Positions 23,697 through 61,728 of a DNA stretch of 64,000 nt are shown here, in pieces. Every line of letters starts with the position of its first letter. Within the stretch, counting starts at the first letter, position 1. This DNA comes from Thermoplasmata archaeon (lineage in GTDB: Archaea > Thermoplasmatota > Thermoplasmata > Thermoplasmatales > Thermoplasmataceae). Both the position numbers and the translations under genes were made by a program. The notes below the pieces were generated by a model that saw nothing but the letters and a program-made list of their open reading frames with translations, was not told the origin of the DNA and did no database searches. The DNA lies in the NCBI GenBank assembly GCA_021806235.1, contig JAJZXU010000010.1, forward strand, positions 1-64,000, given 5' to 3'.

Positions 23697-23888
23697 TTTT
23701 ATAATTATGCTGTTTCTCACTATTCTATTAATTTTAAACAGTAATAAATCAAAATAATAATATATGCAATATCTATTTTTATGTTATGAAAATAAAAAAG
23801 TTTTTTAGGAACTGTGGGGTACATTTCCTGTGGAGAATAAATATTTTATTGGACAAAAGGCAAAATTTATTTATAAAATTAAGCGTAG

Positions 23889-23952
23889 ATAATAAACGTC
23901 TTTATATAACGGGGAGAGGGGTGCATTTCCTATGGAAGTGAAAAAAGGTATA
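23889..23952 (+). repeat. 64-bp perfect inverted repeat, left arm (gcvT promoter + first 7 codons)
   Basis: ATAATAAACGTCTTTATATAACGGGGAGAGGGGTGCATTTCCTATGGAAGTGAAAAAAGGTATA; exact reverse complement at 25229-25292. Confidence 0.98.
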
Positions 23953-25041
23953 CCGTCCAAAACAGAATTAAATAATGAACATAAAAAATTAAATGCAAAA
24001 ATGATAGATTTTCATGGCTGGGAAATGCCACTGGAATATTCTGGTATAATATATGAACATCTTGCAGTAAGAAAGCATGTGGGTATATTTGATATTTCAC
24101 ATATGGGGGATATAATAATATCAGGCAATGAAGCTAATAAATTTGTGGATTATATATTTCCATCAAAGGTTTCATCCTTAAATGTAAATGAGTGCTTATA
24201 CACGTCATTTTTAGATGAAAATGCGATGATGATTGATGATACAGTAATATATAGATTAAACACAGATAAATTCTTTTTAATACCAAATGCTGCCACAATA
24301 GATAAAATATATAACTGGTTATTAAAAAATAAAAACAATTATGATGTAAATATATGTAATTGTTCGGATAAAATATCACATATAGCTGTTCAGGGACCTG
24401 ATTCATACAATGTTTTAAATGATATTAATATAGAAATACCGGAAAACTTTAAGGCTGTTTATCATAAAATAAATTATAATAATGTTTTAACAGAAGATAA
24501 CAGTATTATAGTTTCCGGCACAGGTTATACGGGAGAAAAAGGTGTTGAATTAATTGTTCCAAATGAAATAGCATCAGAAATATGGGAAGAATTATTAAAA
24601 AAAATTAAAAAATATAACGGTTTGCCATGTGGTTTAGGATCCAGGGATACATTGAGAATGGAAAAGGGAATGCTATTATCTGGTCAGGATTTTAATGAAA
24701 ATAAAAATCCGTATGAGGCTTCTGTATCTTTTATAATAAACTATGACCATAATTTTATAGGAAAAAATAAACTACTGGATGCAAAGGAAAATTATAATAA
24801 TATTTTTAGAGGTTTTATTTTAGAAAATAAAAATATACCCAGAAACGGTTTTGAAATTTATTCAAATAATAATGAATTAATAGGTAACATTACAAGTGGA
24901 ACTTTATCCCCAATATTAAATTGTGGCATTGGCCTTGGATATATAAATAAAAAATATAATAAAATTAATGATATAATATATATTAAAATAAGAAATAATA
25001 TGGTTAAAGGTAAAATTTCAAGACCAAAAATTTTAAAATAA
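23932..25041 (+). CDS. gcvT: glycine cleavage system T protein (aminomethyltransferase)
   Basis: MIDFHGWEMPLEYSG, VGIFDISHMGD, GYTGEKGVEL, DTLRMEKGMLLSGQD. Confidence 0.95.
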   Translation: MEVKKGIPSKTELNNEHKKLNAKMIDFHGWEMPLEYSGIIYEHLAVRKHVGIFDISHMGDIIISGNEANKFVDYIFPSKVSSLNVNECLYTSFLDENAMMIDDTVIYRLNTDKFFLIPNAATIDKIYNWLLKNKNNYDVNICNCSDKISHIAVQGPDSYNVLNDINIEIPENFKAVYHKINYNNVLTEDNSIIVSGTGYTGEKGVELIVPNEIASEIWEELLKKIKKYNGLPCGLGSRDTLRMEKGMLLSGQDFNENKNPYEASVSFIINYDHNFIGKNKLLDAKENYNNIFRGFILENKNIPRNGFEIYSNNNELIGNITSGTLSPILNCGIGLGYINKKYNKINDIIYIKIRNNMVKGKISRPKILK

Positions 25042-25228
25042 AATTTTAAAATTAATTTTTATTATATTTTTTTAATTTATTAATAATAATTTATAATAAT
25101 TAAACAAAGTGTGTCAGCGTAGATATTTTTAATTTAAACTTTTCTATTTATTTATATATTAGATATATAAATAAATATATTATTAATTATATTTATTAAA
25201 TTTAATAATTATATTATTTTAAGAGGGA

Positions 25229-25292
25229 TATACCTTTTTTCACTTCCATAGGAAATGCACCCCTCTCCCCGTTATATAAAGACGTTTATTAT
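25229..25292 (-). repeat. 64-bp perfect inverted repeat, right arm
   Basis: Reverse complement identical to 23889-23952. Confidence 0.98.
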
Positions 25293-25486
25293 TCATGCTA
25301 ACATTTAAAATTAAATTTTCATTTCCAGACTTATTTATGAAACATCTCCACTGGAAATATACCGTGTAATTTTTTTAAATTTTAGTTCTTGTTAAAAATT
25401 TTATATACTGAAGTTAGGGATATCAGGTTAAATTTTAGAAATATTTAATAATTTTATATCAATTACCAATTAAATTAAAATAAAAA

Positions 25487-25558
25487 GGGCCGATAGATCA
25501 GCGGTAGATCGCTTGCTTTGCAAGCAAGAGGGCCCGGGTCCAAATCCCGGTCGGTCCA
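25487..25558 (+). tRNA. tRNA-Ala (anticodon TGC)
   Basis: GGGCCGATAGATCAGCGGTAGATCGCTTGCTTTGCAAGCAAGAGGGCCCGGGTCCAAATCCCGGTCGGTCCA. Confidence 0.96.
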
Positions 25559-25668
25559 CTTACATTTATTAATAAATTCCTATTAACATTTTTAAAAGGT
25601 TGATTTATATTAATGACCTGTTTTTAATAATTAAATAAATTTATAAAATAATTAATTATAAAGTTTTA

Positions 25669-30176: not shown

Positions 30177-33100
30177 ATGGAAAATAATGGAAAAATATAC
30201 AGTATATCAGGGCCTGTTGTTATAGCAACAGATCTTGATGGTAAAATGTTTGACGTTGTAAAAGTGGGAGAACTGGGATTGATAGGTGAGATTATAAAAA
30301 TAGTAGGTAATAAATATACAATACAGGTTTATGAAGACACATCTGGATTAAGACCAGGTGAACCTGTAAAATCCACCGGTAAACCACTATCTGTTGAGCT
30401 TGGACCGGGTTTATTAAAATCCATATATGATGGAATACAGAGACCCTTAGATATAATAAGATCAGAAACGGGAGATTTTATAATAAGAGGTGCAACGGCT
30501 CCGCCACTGGATGAAAATAAGGAATGGGAATTTACACCATTATTAAAGGAAGGAACCGAGGTTAAACAGGGATATATTGTTGGCACTGTCCAGGAAACGG
30601 ATTTAATAGTAAATAAAATAATGGTTCCACATAATATTTCCGGTAAGATAAAATCAATAAAATCCGGTAAATTTAAGGTATCGGATACGGTATGTATAGT
30701 GGAAAACAACAATAAAAATTATGAAATAAAATTAAAGCAAACATGGCCTGTAAGGGAAGCCAGAAGGGTATTTTTAAAATTTGCACCAGAAATACCATTG
30801 ATAACAGGTCAGAGGGTTATAGACTCGTTTTTCCCGGTTGCAAAGGGTGGTACAGTTGCAGTGCCCGGACCCTTTGGGTCAGGAAAATGCGTAACAGGGG
30901 ATACCCCCGTTTTGCTAGGTAGCGGTTCAATAAAGTGCATCAAGGATTTGTACGAGGAAGGGGCGCAAGATGGCATCGTGGTACAATCTGATAATGAAGA
31001 GTATATACACCTCAGGAAGCCTATAGAACTGCTTTCATTTAACAATGGCAAGATTCAGAAAAGTGAGTCAACATTGCTGTATAAGGGAAAATCAGATTCT
31101 GTTATTCGTGTCAGAACAAGAACAGGGCGTGAAGTTAGGGTAACACCTGTGCATAAGCTATTCAAACTTACGGAAAAAGGCGTAATAGAAGAAATAGAAG
31201 CAAAACACCTGTCTCCTGGCGATTATATAGTATCTGCAAAATCCACCGGTATAGATGGGGAAAACTCCCCTATCGATGTCTATGCCATGGATGAGGCCAG
31301 GGTTTTGGATAGAAATATTAGGGATAGGGTAGCAAGTCTGCTAAAACTCTCTTATGACAAGGAAATTAACATGTCACTTTCCGCAGAAGTCAAGTATAGC
31401 CTCTCCAGATCATATAACAGAGTGACACCAAAACTCTCATGGATTAAGGAGATTTTTACAAAAATGGGAGAACCACTTCCCAGACCACATCTGCTCGTGA
31501 GTGACCGCAGGAGCACTCCGGTACACATTCCGGACAGAATGAGTGATGAACTTGCGGAATTCCTCGGCTTCTACATTTCTGGTGGGTATATTAGGGGAAA
31601 TGAAACTATAGTATTCACAAACCTGGATGAGAAACTGCTCCAAAGATACACATACCTGGCAGAGAGGCTATTTTCCCTCAGGGGCATCAGGGAAACCCAG
31701 AAGGAAAGAGTGCCTAATATACTACTGCACAGCAAAATACTCGTTGAATTCCTGAACTATTTAAATACTGGAAAAATCGCATCCACTAAGAGGATACCTG
31801 ATATTCTTCTCAGCTCAAGCAGTTCTGCTCTCTCTGCATTTCTGACTTCTTACTTCATTGGTGATGGGTCATTCTACAAAAATAGTGTGGAATTCAGCAC
31901 TGCAAGTAGATGGCTCTCTATTCAGATTTCATATCTACTAACTAGATTTGGAATAATGAATACGCAGGGTGTACGGAGAATTGACGGAAAGGAACATTAC
32001 AGGATTTTTGTACGCGGGAAGGGGGGCATCGCAGGACTTCTGCAAGTGTTGAAGCCCGGGCACGCTAAGATTGATAAGATGCAGACGCATTTAAGGACAG
32101 AAAAACCCACCTATAATTCCATTGACATAGTGCCAGTGTCTTCCGACTTTATTAAAGATATATATAGTAAATACACCAGATATTCAGATCTTCAGAGAGA
32201 AGGCATTGAAATTTACAATTACACAGGAAATAAAGAACATACAGGTTCAAAGGTGATTGAAGGATCTAGTGAATATCAGATGTTAGAGACTCCAACTTTG
32301 ACTCTTGCCGATTCTCTTGAATGTATTTATTTTGATAGAATAGTCTCTGCTGAGGAGGAATCGGGGCCATTTGACGTATATGATGTCTCTGTACCGGAAT
32401 TCGGGAAGAACTTTGTTGGTGGATATGGGGGCATCATTCTCCACAATACTGTTATACAACACCAGTTATCAAAATGGTCGGATGCGGATATAACTGTATA
32501 TGTTGGTTGTGGGGAACGTGGCAATGAAATGACAGAGATTCTGTCAACGTTTCCGGAATTGCTGGATCCAAAAAGCAGTAAACCATTAATGGAAAAAACA
32601 ATTTTAATAGCCAACACATCAAACATGCCTGTGGCTGCAAGGGAAGCAAGCATATATACCGGTGTAACCGTAGCAGAATATTACCGTGATATGGGATACG
32701 ATGTTGCATTAATGGCAGATTCAACAAGTAGATGGGCTGAAGCATTAAGGGAAATTTCCGGCAGGCTTGAGGAAATGCCTGGAGAAGAAGGATATCCGGC
32801 ATATCTTGGCAGGAGAGTTTCGGAATTCTATGAAAGGTCTGGCAGGGCACAGGTTATTCCGGAAGACGATCGCGTAGGCTCAATAACATTAATAGGTGCA
32901 GTTTCACCCCCGGGTGGAGATTTATCGGATCCTGTAGTGCAGAATACATTAAGGGTAACAAGAGTTTTCTGGGCCCTGGATGCTTCTCTGGCATCAAGAA
33001 GGCATTTTCCATCAATCAACTGGTTAAACAGCTATTCGCTATATTTGGATTCACTGTCAGGCTGGTTTAAAACCAATGTAAACAGTGACTGGTTAAATAC

Positions 33101-33506
33101 CCACTCATTTATGATGGGTATGCTCCAGAAAGAGTCAGAGTTACAGGAAATAGTTCAGTTAGTGGGGTATGATTCATTACCGGAAAAGCAGAAAAACATA
33201 CTTGATATAGCCCAGATAATAAGGGAAGATTTTTTACAGCAGAATGCATTTGATGATATAGATACATACTGCTCAATGAAAAAACAGTATGAAATGTTAA
33301 TGATAATAAAAACATTAAACGATAATCAGGAAAAGGTCATAGATGCCGGCAGAAAGGTATCACAAACATCAACATTGCCGGTAAGGTCAAAAATATCCAG
33401 GATGAAGGAAGTAAAGGAAGAAGATTTTGAAAAGTTCTATAATAATATCATAAAGGAAATAAATAATGAATATAATAGTATAATAGAAGGTGTTGAGAAT
33501 GTCTAA
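30177..33506 (+). CDS. atpA: A-type ATP synthase catalytic subunit A, intein-containing precursor
   Basis: GPFGSGK P-loop split by insert; [33 protein letters not shown]. Confidence 0.97.
30888..32447 (+). other. intein (520 aa) inserted in P-loop of subunit A, LAGLIDADG type
   Basis: Starts [11 protein letters not shown], ends GGIILHN; next extein residue T restores GPFGSGK/TVIQHQ; motifs [11 protein letters not shown] and [10 protein letters not shown]. Confidence 0.97.
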
Positions 33507-37903: not shown

Positions 37904-39085
37904 ATGGAAAAAATAAAAAATATAGATATTTATGAGCTTGGCTCTCCAGAGGAGAAATCATCACCATGGAGTTCAACAATTTTAATACTGAAATTAACAT
38001 CGAGCAACGGTAATATAGGATTTGGGGAAGCACCAACAACATTGATGACACTGCCGGTAAAGGAAAGTTTAAGAGAAGTCTCAAGAATTTTTCAGGATAA
38101 AAACTACTTTAACATTGAAAAAAACTTAAGGGAGTATTATAGAAATGCATTTTATTTATCAAAATCAATAGAAGAAACTGCAGCATTAAGTGCATTTGAA
38201 ATTGCATCATGGGATTTAATAGGAAAGGATCTGGGTGCACCGATATACAATTTAATTGGCGGGCAATTTAATGATAAAATAAAAGCATATTCCAATGGCT
38301 GGTATTCTGATTGTGTTGAACCAGAGGATTTTGTTAATAAAGCAAAGGCACTGGTAAACAAAGGCTATAAAGCCTTTAAATTTGATCCATTTGGGAATAA
38401 TTATGATAAAATCTCAAATGATGGTTTAAGAAAGGCAGTTGATATTGTTGGGTCCATGAGAGATGCTCTTGGAGAGGATGTGGATTTACTGATAGAATGC
38501 CATGGTAGGTTTTCGACAAAGTATGCAATAAGGGTTGGTGAGGCACTGGATGAATTTAACCCAATGTTTATAGAGGAGCCAATACATCCAGAGATGGAAC
38601 TTGGATTGTATGAATTCAAAAAATACGTTAATACTCCCATAGCACTGGGTGAAAGACTGTTAAACAAGGAGGATTTTGCAAGGTACATTTCCAGTGGAAT
38701 GGTGGATATAATCCAGCCGGATATTACAAATTCCAAGGGAATTTTAGAGGCAAAAAAAATTGCGGCAATAGCAGAATCCTTTGGCACTCCGGTAGCCTTC
38801 CATAATGCTTTCGGCCCGGTTCAGAGTGCTGCAACCGTAAATGTCGATTATGCGATACCAAATTTTATAATACAGGAAAGCTTTGAGGAATCCTGGCCAG
38901 AATGGAAGAAAAAATTATTTTCCGGTTATGGTGTAAATAACGGATATTTTGAATTATCAGGCAAACCGGGTCTGGGTATAACTGTAGATGAAAAACTACT
39001 CGAAAAAAGCAGGGTTGAAGGAATGGAGCCACTTGGCAATGAACCCCCATGGGTTGTTTCAGGCACTTATTCCAAACCATCATAG
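37904..39085 (+). CDS. enolase-superfamily sugar-acid dehydratase (gluconate dehydratase-like)
   Basis: GYKAFKFDPFG, LLIECHGRF, FIEEPIHPE, PVAFHNAFGPVQ. Confidence 0.82.
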   Translation: MEKIKNIDIYELGSPEEKSSPWSSTILILKLTSSNGNIGFGEAPTTLMTLPVKESLREVSRIFQDKNYFNIEKNLREYYRNAFYLSKSIEETAALSAFEIASWDLIGKDLGAPIYNLIGGQFNDKIKAYSNGWYSDCVEPEDFVNKAKALVNKGYKAFKFDPFGNNYDKISNDGLRKAVDIVGSMRDALGEDVDLLIECHGRFSTKYAIRVGEALDEFNPMFIEEPIHPEMELGLYEFKKYVNTPIALGERLLNKEDFARYISSGMVDIIQPDITNSKGILEAKKIAAIAESFGTPVAFHNAFGPVQSAATVNVDYAIPNFIIQESFEESWPEWKKKLFSGYGVNNGYFELSGKPGLGITVDEKLLEKSRVEGMEPLGNEPPWVVSGTYSKPS

Positions 39086-60288: not shown

Positions 60289-61728
60289 TCCAGAGGCACC
60301 ATCAGAAGCATTTTTTGCTGGTAACACCAATTTTGGCATTCCGTGGACATGCTTATATGTTGCTACTGCAATCTCTTCCAGTGTCAACCCGTTTGTTTCT
60401 GGGGTGAAAAACACCGTGAAAACAAAGGCCAGTACCATCAGGCTGAGCAGGACGAAAAAGAAGGAAGATTTGCCAATTGCAGTGCTAATATATGGGAATA
60501 AAAATGCTGATGTGAATGCCGCTATTCTTGTTATTCCTGTTGCACCACCCATGGAAGATGATCTGAGCTTTGTTGGCAATAGTTCAATAGCATACAGACC
60601 CATGGTATTTCCAGGGCCAAGGTTGCCCACACCGTAGTCTATTACAAAGGCAGCGACACCAATTACGATTCCAATGCTTGCAACTGCACCGGACGCTATG
60701 AAGAACATTGCCATCGCTATGGTCATGGATCCAAATCCAATTGCCTGCAGTGGTTTTCTTCCAAGGCGATCATTGAGCAATACAGCACCAAATGCACCCA
60801 GGAAGCCCACTGGCATATTAAATATAAGGGATAAGAGCAATGATGACCCTCCACTGAACCCAAAACTTTTAAGTATAATTGGAGAGTACAGCCCTATTCC
60901 ATAACCTGCAATATCGTAAAGAATCCATTGGAACCATATTATAGCTGTACGCTTTCCATATTCCCCCTTAAACAGGGCAGAAAATGATCCTGCGCCAATA
61001 TTTTCCTCAGACTGTCTTTCCGCAATTATTGCCTTTATATCTTCAGATGTAATTCCAATATGTTTGGCTATGGAATTTATATTTTTTTCGGAAAGTTTTG
61101 ATTTTTCAGGCTCTATAAGATTCCACCTTAATGATTCAGGCATTTCAGTTCTTAATACAACAGTGATTATAGCAGGAATGGCACCCAGTGCAAGAGTCCA
61201 TCTCCAGCCAGCTAATGGATCTGCAAGATAAAATACATATCCCAGCAGAAACGCTGCACCTGCACCAATGCTCCAGAATGCCCATACCCAGCCATAACCA
61301 GCGCCACGTTTTTTATTTGGATACATCTCAGTAGTATATACGGGACTCAGGGCATAATCAGCCCCAATACCCCAGCCCACAAAGAACCTGAAAATAATCA
61401 TTTCATATACATTGGTTGACAGTGCAGAGAGTACTGCAAATACTGCAAAAAATACCAGATCGAATATGTACAGGTATCTTCTTCCTATCCTGTCTGCATA
61501 GTGACCAAAAAGAACTGAACCAACAAACGCCCCTAAAAGTGCTGACCCTGTTACAAATGATTCTGTAAATGAGTTATATGGAAATATTTTATATGTTACC
61601 AGAACCAGTGTAAACACCGAGATCACACTAAGGTCATATCCATCAAGAAAATACCCCATTGCAGATAGTGTAGTAACAACCGATCTGCCAGGCATTTTCA
61701 ATGATTTACTTTTAACTGTATCTGTCAT
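60271..61728 (-). CDS. MFS sugar-type transporter
   Basis: FLDGYDLSVISVFTLVL, GHYADRIGRRYLY, GWGIGADYALSPVYTTEMYPNKKRGAGYG. Confidence 0.93.
   Translation of the reverse strand: MTDTVKSKSLKMPGRSVVTTLSAMGYFLDGYDLSVISVFTLVLVTYKIFPYNSFTESFVTGSALLGAFVGSVLFGHYADRIGRRYLYIFDLVFFAVFAVLSALSTNVYEMIIFRFFVGWGIGADYALSPVYTTEMYPNKKRGAGYGWVWAFWSIGAGAAFLLGYVFYLADPLAGWRWTLALGAIPAIITVVLRTEMPESLRWNLIEPEKSKLSEKNINSIAKHIGITSEDIKAIIAERQSEENIGAGSFSALFKGEYGKRTAIIWFQWILYDIAGYGIGLYSPIILKSFGFSGGSSLLLSLIFNMPVGFLGAFGAVLLNDRLGRKPLQAIGFGSMTIAMAMFFIASGAVASIGIVIGVAAFVIDYGVGNLGPGNTMGLYAIELLPTKLRSSSMGGATGITRIAAFTSAFLFPYISTAIGKSSFFFVLLSLMVLAFVFTVFFTPETNGLTLEEIAVATYKHVHGMPKLVLPAKNASDGASGSNEKT

Follow-up and report, generated by a model that had tools for sequence, protein, structure and literature searches.

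Within the 64,000-nucleotide stretch of Thermoplasmataceae DNA analysed here (the window), the aminomethyltransferase gene gcvT lies between two exact inverted copies of a segment that carries its own TATA-like sequence and first codons. Why should a metabolic gene be bracketed in this manner? A sequence-only reading of the locus had put forward three options, namely (i) an invertible segment, (ii) an antisense promoter, or (iii) a palindrome kept identical by gene conversion. The sites embedded in the two copies resemble the archaeal origin recognition box (ORB) and sit at a replicore boundary, a result that falls outside all three. From comparisons of genome sequences, we propose that the locus is very probably an ORB-type chromosomal replication origin (oriC), with gcvT caught between inverted ORBs and orc1 located elsewhere; this assignment most likely covers Ferroplasma, Thermoplasma, and their relatives. 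The case is built on the conservation of the elements, their resemblance to ORBs, the replicore boundary, gene polarity, and concerted evolution.

Anatomy of the gcvT locus

By direct sequence comparison, the two arms of the repeat (23889–23952, plus strand; 25229–25292, minus strand) are reverse complements without mismatch across 64 bp, and a whole-assembly search of the 1.93-Mb genome returned these two matches only. As had been described, the arms are spaced by an interior of 1,276 bp, and the left arm does contain a TATA-like sequence and the start of gcvT; it holds TTTATATAAC, the gcvT ATG at 23932, and the codons MEVKKGI, together with an inner ORB-like element. On its minus strand, the right arm encodes MEVKKGISLLK*, an 11-codon leftward ORF from about 25249 to 25214. 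This ORF is real, but its supposed placement antisense to the gcvT 3' end is not, as gcvT (23932–25041, plus strand; 369 aa) has its stop at 25041 and the ORF is intergenic. The gene itself is single-copy in nearly all genomes searched, and its conserved right-hand neighbour, a tRNA-Ala gene (25487–25559, plus strand), served as the reference for orientation.

Four ORB-like elements surround the gene. With a scoring matrix trained on other genera, the inner left (ORB-L; 23910–23937, plus strand) and inner right (ORB-R; 25244–25271, minus strand) elements were the joint top matches in the window at 42.9 bits, followed by an outer left element, GGAACTGTGGGGTACATTTCCTGTGGAG (23808–23835, plus strand), at 18.6 bits, with the rest at 2.3 bits or below. 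An outer right element (25346–25373, minus strand) has the dyad TTTCCAGTGGA at 25347–25357, such that one weaker copy per side lies exactly 102 bp beyond the inner one. All eight genomes of the genus, as well as G019, have the outer left site at −109 and the inner at −7, and the right side repeats the 102-bp spacing in G000, G060, G040, and G019, the genomes where an outer right site was identified. In Ferroplasma, the inner left element is placed between the gcvT TATA box and the start codon, the ATG at 23932 falling within the ORB-L dyad TTCCTATGGAA; in 25 other genomes it is the gcvT stop codon that falls within the right dyad, which is typically TTCCATAGGAA.

Between gcvT and the right arm lies a 187-bp stretch of 91% AT (25042–25228), a candidate unwinding region. 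Within it, the short motif AAGTGTGTC (25107–25115, plus strand) is conserved in the genus, according to an alignment of the region from ten genomes, and is replaced by AAGTGTATC in one genome; the stretch around it is otherwise diverged, and the motif might be recognised by a protein within the candidate unwinding region.

Two further observations concern the DNA to the right of the locus. A lone ORB-like dyad, GCAAGGTACATTTCCAGTGGAA, occurs at 38678–38699 (plus strand), ~14 kb from gcvT and without a G string, and G040 has a similar site ~13 kb from the gene. Separately, a V/A-type ATP synthase subunit A gene (30177–33506, plus strand; 1,109 aa) contains an apparent intein, seen as an extended insertion that follows the GPFGSGK motif.

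Conservation of the element pair

Comparison of the DNA up- and downstream of gcvT across 54 family genomes with usable flanks revealed an inverted pair of ~28-bp elements, with the consensus GGGGGAGAGGGGTRYATTTCCNNTGGAA and the purine string facing outward, around the gene in 49. The five exceptions comprise G048 and G035, whose gcvT is close to the end of a contig, and all three g10 genomes (see below). The window comes from the genus of Ferroplasma, which includes F. acidarmanus Fer1 (G026; NC_021592.1); we take G039, G024, and G068 to be T. acidophilum, T. volcanium, and Aciduliprofundum boonei, respectively. Element orientation is constant even though the upstream neighbour varies, this being a small membrane protein gene in Ferroplasma and, in most genera, a gene that we read as pdxT from its translated C-terminus. 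ORB-L is kept upstream of gcvT family-wide. In G024 (locus L083), a second right-hand element is present ~400 bp past gcvT (record position 60839–60860), besides the one near the stop codon.

The core pattern is practically limited to gcvT: across the ten genomes searched, no strong copies of the element were found away from the gene, and when 40% of the F. acidarmanus genome was sampled, the three top matrix matches were all at gcvT. Both complete Ferroplasma genomes do carry single ORB-like dyads ~26 kb to one side and 42–45 kb to the other side of gcvT (G026, 910412 and 982441; G009, 1770456 and 13229), which might be initiator-titration sites or chance occurrences.

Resemblance to archaeal ORBs

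Compared with the archaeal ORB consensus, CTTCCAGTGGAAACGAAAGGGGT (PMC4153887), the element core TTCCASTGGAAAT is the dyad of the ORB, i.e., the Orc1/Cdc6 binding site; read on the dyad strand, the element is TTCCASTGGAAATACACCCCTCTCCCCC. The ORB dyad TTCCA-S-TGGAA(A) is exact in the outer sites of several genomes and in many inner sites, those of the window being TTCCTATGGAA. The string beside the dyad lies on the same side and at about the same spacing as in the ORB, but in the Thermoplasmataceae alone the dyad strand carries C in place of the G of the ORB. A G string beside the dyad is usual in some lineages rather than in all, and does not define an ORB.

The other families of the order bear on this difference. 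In families f4, f5, and f6, gcvT has ORB-like elements up- and downstream, and several f3 genomes have them upstream of the gene; none was found at gcvT in the single f2 genome. Among these sister families, canonical G-string ORBs occur at gcvT, such as TCCAGTGGAAATAGAGGGGTC in G083 and TCCATTGGAAATGGTGGGGTC in G068, and the f4 genome G071 has one element of each string polarity. String polarity thus forms a graded series across families, which ties the variant of the Thermoplasmataceae to real ORBs.

Replicore boundary and gene polarity

Raw GC skew was dominated by gene direction and was therefore replaced by strand-corrected skew at third codon positions (GC3), using ORFs called by length only and, for three of the four genomes, samples of about 18–26%. 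The cumulative GC3 curve of F. acidarmanus displays a single main turn, and the best half-circle contrast begins at the 20-kb stretch containing gcvT (P = 0.0004). On a finer scale, its maximum is a plateau at 923.9–948.5 kb, with gcvT at 936.5–937.6 kb, which places the turn within about 13 kb of the gene. For genomes of three further genera (G039, G008, and G011), gcvT was the best of ten GC3 split points; as the best-split test was non-significant in each (P = 0.19, 0.80, and 0.11, respectively), these genomes are supportive but no proof. AT3 skew was uninformative, except in G008.

By the usual bacterial convention, a maximum of the curve such as that of F. acidarmanus would denote a terminus, with the elements serving as termination or chromosome-resolution sites. 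The sign of the skew varies between genera, however, with G039 and G011 opposite to F. acidarmanus, and so cannot decide between origin and terminus. Gene polarity favours an origin over a terminus: in each of the four genomes, the majority of genes run outward from gcvT (55, 53, 58, and 54%; Fisher test on the pooled counts, P = 0.0001). Given also that the elements carry the ORB dyad and that the sister families have canonical ORBs, we regard a terminus as very unlikely.

Concerted evolution of the arms

The arms of G000, G060, and G040 differ at 1 of 60 positions within species and at 3–6 positions between species, and several of the between-species changes appear in the left and right arm alike (ACGTC/ACGCC upstream of the TATA box, an A in the G string, and GTGAAT in G040). 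In these genomes, the right arm is nearer to the left arm than to the right arm of other species (13 versus 25 differences to F. acidarmanus), from which it follows that the left was copied onto the right and that both have been kept alike since. The earlier suggestion of gene conversion is hence supported, with the qualification that the mechanism is our inference; two inversions or template switching would give the same trace. A similar, shorter copying event is apparent in G018.

In F. acidarmanus and its sister genome, the right arm has neither the TATA box nor the MEVKKGI codons, such that both would have arrived with the conversion tract. A copied tract carrying the gcvT TATA box and start codons explains the "second promoter", leaving little to recommend a dedicated antisense promoter. 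The perfect 64-bp match is thus most likely a recent copying event on an older pair of sites, and no flip switch.

Recombination between the arms might still flip gcvT and leave it functional either way, as such repeats can recombine and the arms, identical across their 64 bp, each supply a promoter and start codons. Yet gcvT kept one orientation relative to its neighbours in all 12 close genomes compared, the right-hand promoter is not conserved, and most relatives have arms that are alike in the ~28-bp elements only and are too diverged for homologous inversion. An invertible segment is therefore very improbable, though rare flips within a population may occur, and copying without net inversion is simplest. 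The repeat is also no assembly artefact, since it recurs with different sequences in the assemblies of other species, and the complete F. acidarmanus genome has it in the form of a diverged pair.

An element pair without gcvT

Two of the three g10 genomes contain the same inverted pair directly 3' of pdxT, with an AT-rich spacer of ~120 bp and no gcvT between (G010, contig C22, 34676–34842, locus L269; G027, contig C23, 11155–11322, locus L266), which is close to the textbook ORB-DUE-ORB arrangement. The pair was looked for in the third, G041, and none was found. A cyclase/formamidase-type-like gene (298 aa) lies beyond the ORB pair in this genus, where other genera have gcvT.

This gene-free pair argues against explanations centred on gcvT itself. 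That the elements mark both ends of the gene would suit the operators of a gcvT regulator, acting up- and downstream by looping without any involvement of Orc1, or else the terminal repeats of a mobile gcvT cassette; the position of the Ferroplasma inner left element between TATA box and start codon points the same way. In most genera, however, the left element is at the pdxT end, away from any visible gcvT promoter, and strong copies elsewhere, such as a mobile element with terminal inverted repeats might have left, are lacking from the ten genomes searched. The replicore boundary would be left unexplained by either version, which together we consider highly improbable. A long-range RNA stem joining the 5' end of the gcvT mRNA to its 3' end and held by compensatory change, although compatible with inverted elements flanking one gene in nearly all family genomes, can be all but dismissed given the g10 pair, the absence of within-genome covariation (left-right likeness of 20.3 of 28 within a genome versus 20.7 between genera; 45 genomes), and left-right differences that are mostly not G-U compatible in sense RNA. 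Searches for a riboswitch or other RNA element at the arms returned no Rfam match, even at permissive thresholds.

Relationship to the initiator genes

The main orc1/cdc6 gene lies hundreds of kb from gcvT in complete family genomes, and no ORB-like dyads were found within 1.5 kb of it in the five family genomes tested. Adjacency to orc1/cdc6 is typical of ORB-type origins, though not defining. A weaker orc1 paralogue is encoded 26–36 kb from gcvT in G009, G026, G052, and G008. In the sister families f5 and f3, some genomes have ORB-like sites near orc1 besides those at gcvT, so that in these families the main origin, or a further one, may lie elsewhere than at gcvT. It is plausible that the ancestor of the order had ORBs at both orc1 and gcvT, of which the Thermoplasmataceae would have retained only the latter.

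A working model and its place among known origins

As we envisage the proposed origin, two inverted predicted Orc1/Cdc6 sites (four in the window) enclose gcvT together with a very AT-rich stretch. Orc1/Cdc6 would bind the inverted ORBs, AT-rich DNA beside them would then melt, and MCM would be loaded for bidirectional replication; melting might start in the 25042–25228 stretch or in AT-rich DNA outside the ORBs. The ORB pair itself is old and independent of gcvT; the gene stands between the sites by happenstance, and one ORB incorporates its start codon (Ferroplasma) or stop codon (the 25 other genomes). Within the subclade of the window, about 64–100 bp of left-arm sequence was copied to the right, probably by gene conversion, and the right-arm TATA box and seven opening codons came as passengers of the tract.

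Several points count against the origin. Pronounced AT-rich DNA between the sites is confined to the 187-bp stretch of the window and the g10 spacer, with short tracts outside the ORBs only elsewhere; in most genera, the inter-ORB interval is mainly gcvT, rather than a short AT-rich DUE. To these are added the C-rich string, the non-adjacent main orc1, the non-significant best-split skew in G039, G008, and G011, a skew sign that varies between genera, and the ORB-like sites near orc1 in sister families.

Sulfolobus oriC1 (PMC4010727, PMC12141716) is alike in its inverted Orc1/Cdc6-type sites, the same dyad, AT-rich DNA, and a replicore boundary. The gcvT locus differs in standing apart from orc1/cdc6, in having a 1.1-kb metabolic gene between its inner sites, and, for the Thermoplasmataceae, in bearing the string next to the dyad on the other strand. 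An essential motif lies inside the DUE of oriC1 (PMC12141716), with which AAGTGTGTC may be compared as a lead only. From the same archaeal class comes the Methanomassiliicoccales origin (PMC4153887, Table 2), where ORB pairs also flank one gene and the ORB consensus, GTTCCAGTGGAAATGG-AGGGGT (PMC4153887), is nearly identical to the sister-family sites at gcvT; there the enclosed gene is orc1/cdc6.1, whereas here it is gcvT.

The literature surveyed contained no chromosomal origin for Thermoplasma, Ferroplasma, or Picrophilus, or for the order at large, nor any gcvT origin. For Picrophilus torridus, a member of the same family as the window genome, Arora et al. (2014; cited in PMC4356968) reportedly worked with a PtOrc1/Cdc6 whose ATPase activity responds to ORB-containing DNA; part of the gcvT origin may already have been described through Picrophilus Orc1/ORB studies.

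A more far-reaching version, which we think rather unlikely, is that the order Thermoplasmatales uses an origin built around a metabolic gene, its initiator sites fused with the gcvT start or stop codon and its ORB string strand-flipped, such that Orc1 occupancy would gate the transcription of gcvT as well as firing the origin, with a changed geometry of Orc1 loading. If true, this reading of Orc1 occupancy would link one-carbon metabolism to initiation.

Archaeal ORBs in the literature surveyed are mostly beside orc1/cdc6. Ultimately, the proposed gcvT origin would be a case of lost coupling between initiator gene and origin, with arm-to-arm gene conversion seen acting at an origin. A sequence-defined, order-wide origin, apart from the initiator gene and around a metabolic gene, would offer tests of marker frequency, Orc1 binding, and plasmid replication a direct target.
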